A stretch of 51,814 bases of DNA from Vulcanimicrobiota bacterium (GTDB lineage: Bacteria > Vulcanimicrobiota > Vulcanimicrobiia > Vulcanimicrobiales > Vulcanimicrobiaceae). Below are positions 40,339-45,569 of this stretch, piece by piece (position 1 is the stretch's first letter; every line of letters begins with the position of its first letter). Under the pieces are notes generated by a model. The model did not search any database. It saw only the letters and a program-made list of their open reading frames with translations, and had not been told where the DNA came from. Location: NCBI GenBank assembly GCA_019236975.1, contig JAFAHZ010000121.1, positions 1-51,814 of the forward strand, read 5' to 3'. The position numbers and the translations under genes were made by a program.

Positions 40339-40661
40339 TCGACGTCGTACGCGAGGCAGCGGACGATAAGAAGGGCATCGATTTCATCGCGCTCGACGTT
40401 AGCGCGCGAACGATTCTGGCGGACGCATTCGTCATCGTCACGGGACGGTCGAAAATTCAAACGCGCGCCATTGCCGACGGCATCGTGGAAGCGGTCGAAA
40501 AGGACGGGCATCGCGTCGCCCGCGTCGAGGGGTACGCCGACGGCACGTGGATTCTGCTCGATCTCGGGAACGCCATCGTGCACGTCTTCACGCCCGAAGA
40601 GCGCACGTTTTACAACTTGGAGCGGCTATGGGGCAACGCGGCCGGGGTGGCGGCGCAATGA
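40335..40661 (+). CDS. rsfS: Ribosomal silencing factor RsfS
   Basis: The product is 108 aa. FIALDVSARTILADAFVIVTGRS and ADGTWILLDLGNAIVHVFTPEERTFYNLERLWG are diagnostic for RsfS/Iojap. It binds ribosomal protein L14 and blocks subunit joining in starvation. The start is TTG inside the yqeK stop (TTGA); AAGGAGG lies 16 nt upstream, further than usual. The stop overlaps the ATG of the following small gene. Confidence 0.95.
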   Translation: MIDVVREAADDKKGIDFIALDVSARTILADAFVIVTGRSKIQTRAIADGIVEAVEKDGHRVARVEGYADGTWILLDLGNAIVHVFTPEERTFYNLERLWGNAAGVAAQ

Positions 40662-40810
40662 GCCGGGGACGCGTCTCGCACGAAAGCCGGGCGTCACGGA
40701 ATCGTCGCGATTTCTGGAAACGTCTCGGCGTGTGGATTTTCATCGTGCTGTTCGCGTTGAGCGTCGCCGGCTTCCTCATCGTCGTAACGGCGGTACCCGC
40801 GGCCCGCTGA
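40658..40810 (+). CDS. 50-residue single-pass membrane protein
   Basis: ATGA overlap with rsfS gives a 50-aa product: a basic N-terminus (SRGRVSHESRASRNRRDFWKR) and one hydrophobic helix (LGVWIFIVLFALSVAGFLIVV). By the positive-inside rule the N-terminus is cytoplasmic. The coupling to five conserved genes supports real expression. No family is recognised; small basic TM proteins of this kind are often annotated as hypothetical next to rsfS. Confidence 0.6.
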   Translation: MSRGRVSHESRASRNRRDFWKRLGVWIFIVLFALSVAGFLIVVTAVPAAR

Positions 40811-40820: not shown

Positions 40821-40832
40821 ATTGTCGACAAT
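40821..40832. promoter_or_regulatory. Perfect 12-bp palindrome, likely GntR/FCD operator
   Basis: ATTGTCGACAAT is fully palindromic and lies 15 nt before the ATG of the beta-alanine-type transaminase. A near copy stands before the permease-gntR operon (45558-45569). Dyads of the TTGTC-GACAA type are usual for FadR-group GntR regulators, so this is the probable binding site of the GntR encoded at 43534-44175. Confidence 0.7.
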
Positions 40833-40847
40833 GTGCAAGAGGTGGGC

Positions 40848-42146
40848 ATGGACCACGTTCTAACGCCCTGGGTCGCCCAGGCCGGCCGCAAGGCTCCGGT
40901 CATCGTGCGGGGTGAGGGCTCCTACCTCTATGACGATGCCGGAAACCGGTATCTGGACCTTTCGGCCGGCCTGGTCGCGGTCAACCTCGGCCACGGCCAC
41001 GCCGGCGTCGCATCGGCCATCGGCGAGCAGGCCGCTCGTCTCGGCTACTGCGCGCCCAGCCTCGGAAACGATACGCGCTCGGCATTGGCTCGAGCGATCG
41101 CAGAAATCGGCCCCTGGGCCGAAGGCGCGCGCGTCTTCTTCACGACCGGCGGCGGTGAAGCCAACGAAGATGCGGTGAAGTTCGCGCGCGCGATGAGCGG
41201 ACGGCATAAGATTCTCACCGCGTACCGCTCGTTTCACGGGTCCGCTCCGGGCGCGGGAAGCCTGACCGGCGAGAACCGGCGATGGCCGAACGAGCCGGGG
41301 ATGCCGGGTATCGTCCGCTTTTTTGCGCCGTTTCCGTACCGCAGCCCGTTTCACACGCGCGACGCAAACGAAGAAGTCGATCGCGCGATCGCGCACCTCG
41401 AAGAGATCGTGCGCTACGAAGGCGGCGAACGCATCGCCGCGCTCCTGATCGAACCGGTCATCGGTTCCAACGGCGTCATCGTCTTTCCAGACGGTTATCT
41501 CAAGCGCGTGCGCGAGTTGTGCGACCGTCACGGCATTCTCCTGATTTTCGACGAGGTCATGACGGGATTCGGACGCACGGGCGAAGCGTTCGCTTCGCAG
41601 CGCTTCGGCGTCGCTCCCGATATACTGACCTTTGCAAAGGGCGTGACGTCGGCGTACGTGCCGCTCGGCGGCGTGGCCGTGCGCGAATCGCTCGCCAAAT
41701 TTTTCGACGCCCATCCGCTGCCCAGCGGCCACACGTTCAGCGGTCATCCGGTGGCGGCGGCTGCCGGCCTTGCCGCGATCGAAGCTTATCGCAACGAAGG
41801 GCTGTTTGCGCGAGCACGCGTCGTCGAGGGCTGGCTGCGATCGCGCTTCGACGCGCTGGCCGAGCGGCATCGCATCATCGGGGAGGCGCGAGGCGTCGGC
41901 GCGTTCTTCGGACTCGAGCTGGTCACCGATCGCGATACGCGCGAGCCGCTGGTGGAATGGCAGGGCGGGAAAACGCTGCACTCACTGTTCGGCGATCTGC
42001 TCGCGCGCGGGCTCTACATTTACGGCCGGTACAACGTGATCGTCGTCTCGCCGCCGCTAACGATCGGCGAAGCCGAGCTCGACGAAGCGATGACGATTTT
42101 CGACGAAGCGTTTGCCGAATTCGCCAAGATTCCAAAGGCAGGATAA
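40848..42146 (+). CDS. Class III aminotransferase, beta-alanine/taurine-pyruvate type
   Basis: The product is 432 aa from the ATG at 40848 (AGAGGTG 4-6 nt upstream). PLP-fold motifs: FFTTGGGEANEDAVKFAR, AYRSFHGSAPGAGSLTG, LLIEPVIGSNGVIVFPDGY, FDEVMTGFGRTGEAF and the Schiff-base lysine in LTFAKGVTSAYVPLG (K264). The AKGVTSAY-PLG signature and the SFHGS motif fit the pyruvate-dependent omega-transaminases for beta-alanine or taurine. With the next gene it would turn beta-alanine into malonate semialdehyde and then acetyl-CoA. The substrate is inferred from context. The dehydrogenase ATG is 2 nt after its stop. Confidence 0.85.
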   Translation: MDHVLTPWVAQAGRKAPVIVRGEGSYLYDDAGNRYLDLSAGLVAVNLGHGHAGVASAIGEQAARLGYCAPSLGNDTRSALARAIAEIGPWAEGARVFFTTGGGEANEDAVKFARAMSGRHKILTAYRSFHGSAPGAGSLTGENRRWPNEPGMPGIVRFFAPFPYRSPFHTRDANEEVDRAIAHLEEIVRYEGGERIAALLIEPVIGSNGVIVFPDGYLKRVRELCDRHGILLIFDEVMTGFGRTGEAFASQRFGVAPDILTFAKGVTSAYVPLGGVAVRESLAKFFDAHPLPSGHTFSGHPVAAAAGLAAIEAYRNEGLFARARVVEGWLRSRFDALAERHRIIGEARGVGAFFGLELVTDRDTREPLVEWQGGKTLHSLFGDLLARGLYIYGRYNVIVVSPPLTIGEAELDEAMTIFDEAFAEFAKIPKAG

Positions 42147-42148
42147 TC

Positions 42149-43537
42149 ATGCAGATGGTGGTCACCGATCCGGCAACCGGGCTGGAGCTCGGCAGCGTTG
42201 CCGTCGCGCAGACCGACGACGTAGAACGGGCGGTCGCGGCGGCGAGCGCCGCGTTCGAGAGCTGGTCGGCCGTTCCCGTGGTCGAGCGCGCGCGCATGCT
42301 GTTTCGTTACGCCGACGCGCTCGAGCGCCGGCACGAAGATCTCGCGCGCAGCGTTTCGCGCGAAAATGGAAAGACGATCGCCGACGCGCGCGCCGAAGTG
42401 CGCCGCGGCATCGAAGCCGTCGAGTTTGCCTGCGGTATGCCGTCCCTGATGATGGGCGACGCACTGCCCGACATCGCGCGCGACGTCGATTGCGTTTCGC
42501 TGCGCTTTCCGCTCGGCGTCTGCGCCGGAATCACGCCGTTTAACTTTCCCTCGATGATTCCGCTCTGGATGTTTCCCATCGCCATCGCGGCCGGAAATAC
42601 GTTCGTGCTCAAACCATCGCCGCAAACTCCCCTCACCGCCGACTTGCTGGCGGACGTTTCGCGCGACGCGAAGTTCCCCGACGGCGTCCTGACCGTCGTG
42701 CACGGCGCCGCCGACACCGTCAACGCGCTGATCGATCACCCGGGTATCGCGGCCGTATCGTTCGTCGGCTCCTCGCACGTCGCACGGATCGTCCAAGAGC
42801 GCGCGGTACGCGCCCACAAACGCGTGCAAGCGTTAGGCGGTGCGAAGAATTTTCTGGTCGTGATGCCCGATGGCGTCAAGCAAAGCACGGTCGACGCGAT
42901 TATGAGCTCGGCGTTCGGCGGCGCGGGACAACGCTGCCTTGCCGGATCGGTGGTGGTTGCCGTCGGCGCCGCCGCCGAGAGGCTGCCGCAGATGCTCGTC
43001 GACGCCGCGCGCGGTTTGCGCTTGGGCTGCGGCCTCGACGCCGCTACCGACGTGGGCCCGGTCATCAGTCACGACGCGATCGCGCGCATCGACGGATACG
43101 TCGAGCGGGCTCAAAAGGACGGAGCGACGATGCTGCTGGCGCCCGATCCGGCCGCGCGCGACGCGAAGGGCTCCTTTCTTTCCCCGGTCGTCTTCGATCG
43201 CGTCGATCCGGAAAGCGAGCTGGCCCGCGAAGAAATTTTCGGCCCCGTGCTCGCGATCGTGCGCACCGCAACGCTCGACGAAGCCATCGCGATCGCGAAC
43301 CGGTCGCGTTACGGCAACGCGTCGTCGATCTTCACCGCCGACGGCGGCAGCGCGCGCACGTTCGCCAACCGGATCGAGGTCGGCATGGTCGGCGTCAATG
43401 TCGGCGTCGCCGCACCCATGGCGTTTTTCCCGTTCGGCGGCGTCAAAGAATCGATCTTCGGCGATCTCCGCTGCCACGGAAAGGATGCGGTAGCTTTCTA
43501 CACGCAGCAGCGCGTCGTCATCTCGCGTTGGCCTTAA
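42149..43537 (+). CDS. mmsA: Methylmalonate/malonate-semialdehyde dehydrogenase (CoA-acylating)
   Basis: The product is 462 aa, slightly shorter than typical MmsA (about 490-500). PFNFPSMIPLWMFPIAIAAGN, nucleophile Cys263 in GAGQRCLAGS and FPFGGVKESIFGDLRCHGKDAVAFYTQ are MMSDH-specific. The general-base Glu of ordinary aldehyde dehydrogenases is replaced by Asn in QALGGAKNFLVV, as expected for the CoA-acylating subgroup. It gives acetyl-CoA or propionyl-CoA plus CO2 and NADH from malonate or methylmalonate semialdehyde. It is coupled to the transaminase and its stop overlaps the convergent gntR stop by 3 nt. Confidence 0.9.
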   Translation: MQMVVTDPATGLELGSVAVAQTDDVERAVAAASAAFESWSAVPVVERARMLFRYADALERRHEDLARSVSRENGKTIADARAEVRRGIEAVEFACGMPSLMMGDALPDIARDVDCVSLRFPLGVCAGITPFNFPSMIPLWMFPIAIAAGNTFVLKPSPQTPLTADLLADVSRDAKFPDGVLTVVHGAADTVNALIDHPGIAAVSFVGSSHVARIVQERAVRAHKRVQALGGAKNFLVVMPDGVKQSTVDAIMSSAFGGAGQRCLAGSVVVAVGAAAERLPQMLVDAARGLRLGCGLDAATDVGPVISHDAIARIDGYVERAQKDGATMLLAPDPAARDAKGSFLSPVVFDRVDPESELAREEIFGPVLAIVRTATLDEAIAIANRSRYGNASSIFTADGGSARTFANRIEVGMVGVNVGVAAPMAFFPFGGVKESIFGDLRCHGKDAVAFYTQQRVVISRWP

Positions 43538-44175
43538 ACGCTCAACTCGTCGAAGCCGTGGGTGATGTGAGCGTCCAGCAGCTTGCGCGACATGAGGTAT
43601 TCGCCCCGCTCGACGGCATCGAAGAGCAGATCGTGCTCGTTCACGAGATCCTCGGCGCTTTGATACGTCGCCGTCGTTACGTCGATGTAGAGGCGAATCT
43701 GCACGATGAGGCTCTCGTAGGCGCGCGCGACCAGCGCGTTGCCGGCCATGGCGACCATATCGCGGTGCATTGCGAGGTCCGCTTCGATGGTCGCGTGCCG
43801 GTCGCCGCGGGCAATCGCCGCGCGCATGGCTCCGACGTGTTCGCGCAGCCGCGCGATTCGATCGCGGTCGCGGCTCGACACGAGGCGCTCCAAGGCGAAA
43901 TGCTCGAGCGCCAAGCGAAACTCCAAGAGCTCCGCTAAGCGCGCTTTGTCCAACGGTACCACGACCGCTCCGCGGTAGGGCAGAATTTCGACGAGCCCCT
44001 CCTCGGCCAAGCGTAACAGCGCCTCGCGCACCGGGCTCCGGCTGACGCCGAGCTCGCGGGAAATATCGAGCTCGACGAGACGCGATCCCGGCGCGAGCTC
44101 GCGTTTGGCGATGCGTTCGCGCAGCAGAGCCGCGACGCGAACTGCAGTCGAGGCGCGTTCGAAGGTTTGCTCCAT
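43534..44175 (-). CDS. GntR-family (FCD domain) transcriptional regulator
   Basis: The product is 213 aa. The N-terminal winged helix is typical GntR (LRERIAKRELAPGSRLVE, ISRELGVSRSPVREALLRLAEEGLVEI). The C-terminal FCD helical domain keeps the metal-binding residues (EADLAMHRDMVAMAGN, NEHDLLFDAVERG, LLDAHITHG). It probably senses a small acid or amine-derived metabolite. The ATG overlaps the permease stop (TAATG), so it is made from the permease message and would regulate itself through the 45558-45569 site, and the transaminase operon through 40821-40832. Confidence 0.92.
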   Translation of the reverse strand: MEQTFERASTAVRVAALLRERIAKRELAPGSRLVELDISRELGVSRSPVREALLRLAEEGLVEILPYRGAVVVPLDKARLAELLEFRLALEHFALERLVSSRDRDRIARLREHVGAMRAAIARGDRHATIEADLAMHRDMVAMAGNALVARAYESLIVQIRLYIDVTTATYQSAEDLVNEHDLLFDAVERGEYLMSRKLLDAHITHGFDELSV

Positions 44176-45536
44176 TACGGCGTCTCCGCCGACGTCGCCG
44201 CACCGCGCCGTCGCATTGCGAACAATGCCCAGCCGGCTGCCAGAAACGCCAGATACACGTACGCGAAATACCGCTGCGGCGGCGCGGGTACGGGATAGAA
44301 CAGCGTCACCGCCGGAACTACCAGCAGCACGAGCGCCACGATCGACACGGCGAGATCGATCGGCCGGTGTTCGCCGCGCCGTTTCACGAAAACGAACGCC
44401 GCGATCGAAATGAGCCCGTAAATCGTGATGAATCCAAACGAGCTCAAGGTTCCGGTATTGTTGAAGATATCCAGCGGGCTCACGCCGCCGAACAGCGACC
44501 CGAGCGCCACGGCGAGCGTTACGGCGGTCACGACCGTCACCGCGACGTTGGGCGTATCGTGCTTGGGCTCGACCGCCGCAAGAACGCGCGGCAATGCGTT
44601 GGTCGACGCCATCGCGTAGGCGATGCGGCCGGCCGCGGTAATGCATGCGAGCAGCACCGAAAATGCCGCGCTAAACGCACCGATGAGGAGCGGAACGCGC
44701 AGAAACCCGAGGTTGTAAGATGCCACCAGCGTGCCCAGCGGAAAGGTTTCCTGCGCCAGCGGTTTCCCGGCGTGCGCGAAACCGACGATTTCTGCATACA
44801 TGGCGACGATGAAAAACGCGCTTGCAAAAACGACGCTGCCGATGACCGCACGCGGAATCGTCACGAGCGGACGCTTGGCTTCCGCGCCGAACGCCGTAGC
44901 GCTTTCGAAACCGACGAAGCTGAAGATAGCGAACCCGATTGCCAGTCCGAATCCGCCGGGAAATCCGCCCGTCGCGCGCAGCTGATTGGTATCGATCGAC
45001 GGGCCGTGCGCGGCCAAAATCAATCCGACGAGCACGCAGATCATCGCGACCGACGTCGCTTCGAAGACGAGCATCACGATGGCCGACAACTGTACGCCGC
45101 GATACGCGAGCAGCCACGCCGCAACGGCGACCAGCGTCGCAATGACCGCTGCCGGCGCGTGGACGCCGGCGAGCCCAAGCAGTTGATCCGCGAAGACCGA
45201 CGTCGAGCCCAAGCCGGAAGCCGCTACGAAGCCGTAGGCCCACAGCAGCGACCATCCGGCGAACGCCCCGGTGGTGGATCCGAGATTGTCGGCGACGTAG
45301 CCGTACATCGATCCGGCCGCACTGGAGCGGCGAGCGAATTGATTGATATTGAATGCGACGAAAATCATCATCGCGCCGCCGAAGACGTACGCGATCCACG
45401 TTCCGTTGCCGGCATTGGCAAACATGAACGGTGCGATGAGCAGCGGCGTCATGCTCGGGCCGATGCCGGCAATCGAAATCGCCAGCACCTCGACAAAGCC
45501 GAGAGACCCCGACTTGAGCTGGGCGGGCTGCTCCAT
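44175..45536 (-). CDS. APC-superfamily amino acid permease
   Basis: The product is 453 aa from the ATG at 45536 (the frame itself runs to 45929 over the divergent gene). About 12 transmembrane helices. APC signatures: SIAGIGPSMTPLLIAPFMF in TM1, SSAAGSMYGYVADNLG after TM2 and FSFVGFESATAFGAEAKRPLVTIPRAV in TM6. It would import an amino acid by proton symport; with the linked transaminase and dehydrogenase, beta-alanine or a similar omega-amino acid is the best guess. A GTCGACAAT operator lies 21 nt upstream. The stop overlaps the gntR ATG. Confidence 0.9.
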   Translation of the reverse strand: MEQPAQLKSGSLGFVEVLAISIAGIGPSMTPLLIAPFMFANAGNGTWIAYVFGGAMMIFVAFNINQFARRSSAAGSMYGYVADNLGSTTGAFAGWSLLWAYGFVAASGLGSTSVFADQLLGLAGVHAPAAVIATLVAVAAWLLAYRGVQLSAIVMLVFEATSVAMICVLVGLILAAHGPSIDTNQLRATGGFPGGFGLAIGFAIFSFVGFESATAFGAEAKRPLVTIPRAVIGSVVFASAFFIVAMYAEIVGFAHAGKPLAQETFPLGTLVASYNLGFLRVPLLIGAFSAAFSVLLACITAAGRIAYAMASTNALPRVLAAVEPKHDTPNVAVTVVTAVTLAVALGSLFGGVSPLDIFNNTGTLSSFGFITIYGLISIAAFVFVKRRGEHRPIDLAVSIVALVLLVVPAVTLFYPVPAPPQRYFAYVYLAFLAAGWALFAMRRRGAATSAETP

Positions 45537-45557
45537 GCCCCGTGCTCTGCTCCGTCG

Positions 45558-45569
45558 ACAGTCGACAAT
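45558..45569. promoter_or_regulatory. Second GntR operator-like dyad, before the permease-gntR operon
   Basis: ACAGTCGACAAT differs from the 40821 palindrome at two positions and shares its GTCGACAAT core. A second GTCGAC (45554-45559) overlaps it with a 7-bp offset. It lies 21 nt before the permease ATG and about 68 bp before the divergent TPM gene. Confidence 0.6.

Follow-up and report, generated by a model that had tools for sequence, protein, structure and literature searches.

Does a single GntR-type regulator govern the two convergent operons of this locus through one operator, and which compound would such a regulon serve? The window, by which we mean the whole stretch of 51,814 nucleotides that was analysed, is contig C211 of a draft genome of 3.19 Mb (3,190,071 bases in 336 contigs, 90.5% complete), whose close relatives with names are Candidatus Eremiobacterota MAGs (L064, L065). 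On the forward strand, a gene for a class III aminotransferase (40848–42146, 432 aa; PF00202, 1.6e-84) is followed, two bases past its end, by mmsA (42149–43537, 462 aa; TIGR01722), which encodes a CoA-acylating (methyl)malonate semialdehyde dehydrogenase. On the reverse strand, the stop codon of a gene for an APC-type amino acid permease (44175–45536, 453 aa; PF13520, 7.8e-28) overlaps the start of gntR (43534–44175, 213 aa) as TAATG. These coordinates bear out the layout of the original prediction, in which a transaminase–mmsA operon converges on a permease–gntR operon with gntR as its last gene. The stop codons of mmsA and gntR overlap at 43534–43537, and a promoter and terminator scan found no terminator-like site at this junction. 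For the transaminase, ATG 40848 is the most likely start codon, not GTG 40833, because a Shine-Dalgarno-like AGGTGG, read from the sequence at 40840–40845 (+), precedes that ATG. Between rsfS and the transaminase lies an ORF of 50 aa (40658–40810), hydrophobic by eye, whose position is kept in syntenic relatives, including those of the genus g36. A second transaminase–mmsA pair in the same genome (L172 / L184, G000:C111), 58–59% identical to the first, is found without the operator described below.

The 213-aa regulator displays GntR winged helix-turn-helix and FCD domains, both above gathering scores (PF00392, 9.5e-17; PF07729, 2.6e-20), which places it in the FadR/FCD subfamily. In the orthologue alignment, D133, H137, H181 and H203, which we take to be the aspartate and the three histidines of the FCD metal site, are invariant in 13/13 aligned GntR proteins. 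A search of its own genome gives a single match to the protein at E ≤ 0.001. Its best NCBIfam match is TIGR03338 (phnR_burk, a GntR regulator of phosphonate use), at 91.7 bits and far below the cut-off of 271.5; no phosphonate gene occurs among the cluster proteins scanned.

The nine bases said to be shared by the two promoters are genuine, with GTCGACAAT common to ATTGTCGACAAT (40821–40832, upstream of the transaminase) and ACAGTCGACAAT (45558–45569, upstream of the permease), but this core cuts the motif short, being only part of a 17-base site with three boxes. The full site spans 40822–40838 on the forward strand as operator 1 (TTGTCGACAATGTGCAA), which starts 26 nt and ends 9 bases before the transaminase ATG, and 45552–45568 on the reverse strand as operator 2 (TTGTCGACTGTCGACGG), which starts 32 nt and ends 15 bases before the permease ATG. 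In the window, GTCGACAAT has 3 matches against 0.39 expected, two of which come from the first palindrome, read on both strands, and a count of 3 was reached in 1/100 shuffles of the window. Genome-wide, the motif search that had been suggested gave a divided outcome: the 12-base palindrome ATTGTCGACAAT is confined to a single place in the draft genome, but the bare 9-mer GTCGACAAT has 26 matches, 12 on the forward and 14 on the reverse strand, where the reversed control has 2, and, being so unspecific, is a poor regulon marker on its own. Some of these 26 fall inside predicted ORFs and one looks groES-like by eye, as would be expected if the motif were a chance palindrome or the site of another regulator. 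The 17-mer TTGTCGACNATGTRCAA, in contrast to such a reading, has only two zero-mismatch places in the genome; no place differs by one base and 8 differ by two, and both perfect places precede functionally related genes. Matches to TTGTCGACWRW in this genome include ones on contigs C62, C155, C171 and C289; a wider regulon drawn from them was rejected, those on C171 and C289 lying inside predicted ORFs. A relaxed form of the 17-mer pattern was found at 15 places in 60 genomes, compared with 2 for the reversed control; its matches include ones in G002, G004 (two), G009, G025, G028, G038:C3 and G041.

Read in gene orientation, 14 sites from 11 genomes (among which the G000/G001 and G038/G040 sequences come from close relatives and are not independent) yield the consensus TTGTCGACAATSKRCAA, a TTGT-CG-ACAA dyad with a third half-site on the gene side. 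Operator positions 2–8, TGTCGAC, are invariant except for one base in one site, and the dyad TTGTCGACAA is exact in 9/14 tabulated sites and present with at most one mismatch in 13/14. The third box (positions 11 and 13–17) carries 1.0–2.4 bits per column, with 0.34 at position 12; on the side away from the gene, the values are 1.14 bits at position 0 and 0.06–0.52 at positions −1 to −6. This box reads TGTRCAA in the transaminase type, TCGACAA in class f3 and TCGACGG in the permease type, and is poor in G003. All 14 sites have it on the gene side, so the operator is directional. Operators of the FadR subfamily are described as TKGT/ACMA boxes in which GT and AC stand two or three bases apart, the gap being two bases in GntR, HpxS, HypR, MdcY, PrpR and UxuR, and as having weaker additional half-sites 7–12 nt from the site centre, whose role is left open in the available text of that study (PMC4494728). 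The present sites have such boxes at such a spacing, and the centres of their dyad and third box lie 10 nt apart, within the published 7–12 nt, so that the architecture as such is already known.

Across relatives, the dyad, at no more than one mismatch, heads the transaminase operon in 9/9 genomes with an orthologous linked gntR, namely the window's own genome (G000), G001, G003, G013, G112 (taken to be record L064 by equal coordinates), G052, G026, G046 and G042. In G001, G003, G013 and G112 the site sits in the same transaminase promoter as operator 1, in G112 as a single site before transaminase–mmsA–permease–gntR, and in G052, G026, G046 and G042 the head of the operon is gntR itself. Transaminase relatives devoid of a linked gntR have the dyad in 0/23 upstream stretches of 250–300 bases, which need not all be promoters; these comprise 15 transaminases (0/15; the sixteenth entry of that list is spdH) and 8 further g36 species (0/8). 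In Markov-sampled upstream stretches, the dyad with at most one mismatch appears in 15/3800. Among 19 operon heads tested, 13 have the dyad at this threshold (12/17 when the two sites in the window that had been found beforehand are excluded). The six misses are the window's own permease site (two dyad mismatches, hence a miss at the threshold used), the permease heads of G003 (4) and G013 (3), the gntR head of G037 (3) and both gntR heads of G019 (4 and 4). As far as genome comparison can tell, site and regulator thus belong together, being present or absent jointly. The contrast of 9/9 with 0/23, together with the agreement of the motif with the FadR-subfamily consensus in the available text of PMC4494728, makes it very improbable that the motif is a chance palindrome or belongs to another regulator.

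The genus g36 provides a natural counterpart. In nine of its species the transaminase still adjoins that small ORF, and in the 7/9 whose contigs extend far enough, mmsA and the permease gene point towards each other without an intervening gntR; the dyad precedes 0/9 of the transaminases and 0/7 of the permeases. A match to the GntR protein at 1e-38 is found in 13/149 genomes of the phylum, with no g36 genome among them. The absence of regulator and site in g36 may be one evolutionary event, and because a single loss or gain is possible, the genus counts as one strong observation and not as nine.

The proposal that one operator and one GntR serve both operons is therefore well supported by co-occurrence, but the permease half of it holds only locally: a permease promoter site was found in 2/4 convergent clusters tested, those of G000 and G001, which belong to the same genus, and is absent from the permease promoters of G003 and G013, so that autoregulation of gntR is not general. 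There are also five more distant gntR relatives with other neighbours, of which three (one in G037 and two in G019; 43–44% identity) have no nearby dyad, and two, in G040 and G038, have the dyad before gntR, with no transaminase in the stretches around it. A scan beyond the phylum kept 80 of at least 541 relatives, and four of these loci were used (L064, L065, L066 and L069), three of them being repeats of G003, G040 and G019. As a separate observation, a perfect ATTGTCGACAAT in G019:C44 (L039:6988–6999) precedes an ORF that begins with MERRIGLIGAGEMG and looks dinucleotide-binding by eye. The stretch also holds an HpcH aldolase, a GntR relative of 43% identity and a gene resembling that of 3-hydroxyisobutyrate dehydrogenase; here the same operator apparently serves another pathway.

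Contrary to what had been supposed, the unit is not self-contained, since a third and perfect site lies on another contig. This other perfect 17-mer (G000:C182:4608–4624) starts 36 nt and ends 19 bases before spdH (L043:4644–6518), which encodes a protein of 624 aa whose residues 5–619 match P. aeruginosa SpdH (7d9f, E 1.8e-129), a full-length relation by which we predict it to be a spermidine dehydrogenase. spdH is divergent from genes for E1-alpha, E1-beta and E2 of a 2-oxoacid dehydrogenase, and contig C182 belongs to the organism, since its E2 and the one in G001 share 89% identity; G001 has the 2-oxoacid dehydrogenase operon and lacks spdH. In G052 and G026, spdH comes directly after gntR–transaminase–mmsA, and in G021 it follows a transaminase relative. 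However, SpdH at E ≤ 1e-120 occurs in only 5/149 genomes of the phylum, so that spermidine cannot be the general substrate. The SpdH of the window's genome is 75–76% identical to that of G052, a member of another family, and 51–53% to that of G026, of its own family, and the gntR, transaminase and E2 products of G052 share just 47, 62 and 50% identity with those studied here. Horizontal transfer of spdH is thus likely. Despite the similarity of the gene to that of G052, its operator is of the local transaminase type, and we tentatively propose that a beta-alanine regulon already in place took over an spdH gained by horizontal transfer and that, with three one-way half-sites, two or more dimers of the regulator may bind together with one box in common.

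The substrate is approached through the enzymes. The transaminase scores 554.5 bits against NCBIfam PRK06062 (cut-off 472), and we propose that it is a beta-alanine (omega-amino acid) transaminase; MmsA passes TIGR01722 (MMSDH) with 549.9 bits (cut-off 448.5). In G009, a transaminase relative adjoins preA and a dihydropyrimidinase, together with a C-N hydrolase and an NCS1-type permease that both score under the cut-offs of their best models. Dihydropyrimidine dehydrogenase PreA, dihydropyrimidinase and a C-N hydrolase form the usual route from uracil to beta-alanine. In P. aeruginosa, SpdH makes 1,3-diaminopropane or 3-aminopropanal, and 3-aminopropanal passes through beta-alanine to acetyl-CoA, according to the available part of PMC9397018. 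Because of the MmsA model pass, the uracil-route neighbours in G009 and this SpdH chemistry, we favour beta-alanine as the common node, probably fed here by import and from polyamines, and it likely goes on through malonate semialdehyde to acetyl-CoA. The operators could be genuine for GntR and the substrate nonetheless be taurine or 3-aminoisobutyrate, the latter arising when thymine is degraded or in valine-type breakdown. The solved relative that scores best for the transaminase is a taurine:2-oxoglutarate aminotransferase (6jix, 339.9 bits; the next solved relative has 256.4), but MmsA reaches only 251.2 bits (cut-off 700) as sulfoacetaldehyde dehydrogenase SafD, against its passing score as MMSDH. 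Also in favour of such a substrate, TIGR01722 is named for methylmalonate semialdehyde, and a 2-oxoacid dehydrogenase operon is divergent from spdH. Against it, SpdH stands beside or under the same operator in three genomes, which points to polyamine C3 units, and the 2-oxoacid dehydrogenase contig of G001, a genome devoid of spdH, is without a relaxed 17-mer match. We consider a taurine or 3-aminoisobutyrate substrate unlikely, though still a credible alternative to beta-alanine.

With a probability of roughly 80%, we read the window as a local catabolic regulon of a FadR/FCD GntR repressor that blocks in the unliganded state and is released by a carboxylate, for the use of beta-alanine and polyamines. 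In the absence of ligand, a GntR dimer would sit on the dyad, with the help of the third box, over the transcription start and block both operons and spdH. It would be released when a metabolite of the pathway, probably a carboxylate and for example beta-alanine, binds at the FCD metal site. The permease would then import an amine or amino acid, SpdH would free a C3 unit from spermidine or spermine, the class III transaminase would turn beta-alanine into malonate semialdehyde and MmsA would oxidise the latter to acetyl-CoA. Blocking with carboxylate release is the likeliest course, given the family and the position of the operator, and the term inducible, used of the unit from the outset, would likewise follow from the regulator family. 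The promoter scan found no consensus sigma-70 promoter at either operator and gave one promoter-like site (0.7 expected) elsewhere, so that the blocking geometry is putative. GntR could instead bind the site as an activator or dual regulator. Some FadR-subfamily members activate, and the third box on the gene side makes for a directional site; however, a dyad that starts 26 nt before the transaminase ATG in G000 and G001 is placed for blocking, and the retention of the genes in g36, where regulator and site are gone, is easier to explain for a repressor. Activation is accordingly a rather improbable alternative to repression.

The regulator family, the operator type and the layout are already known for FadR/FCD GntR proteins, and what is new is the local regulon. 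In the available text of PMC4494728, FadR-subfamily regulons share with it the wHTH and FCD domains, TKGT/ACMA boxes, the two-base gap, an extra half-site and a regulator encoded with its targets; they differ in that the extra box is here almost never missing and lies on the gene side without exception, and the present target set (APC permease, class III transaminase, MmsA and SpdH) is not among the groups named there. As in the spermine/spermidine dehydrogenase pathway of P. aeruginosa, SpdH-derived C3 units would end as beta-alanine and acetyl-CoA, but KauB makes the beta-alanine in that organism, according to the available part of PMC9397018, and the cluster here has no such gene and is under the predicted control of an FCD GntR. 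Among the matches listed in the literature, no GntR operator study with TTGTCGACAA was evident by title, and no titles or abstract starts joining "spermidine dehydrogenase" with "GntR" were found.

By sequence comparison, then, the regulon is well supported as real, of an ordinary kind, larger than first proposed and with a better-defined operator. In this member of the Eremiobacterota, one GntR protein appears to switch the genes for uptake and breakdown of a small amine, probably beta-alanine derived in part from spermidine. Very few members of the phylum are in culture, and the locus supplies it with a regulon that can be tested, for which the 17-base site is defined and a genus that lacks the regulator acts as a natural control; it also connects the use of polyamines with the catabolism of beta-alanine there. 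For GntR biology, it adds a clear and directional example of the extra half-site, a feature whose role the available text of PMC4494728 leaves open.
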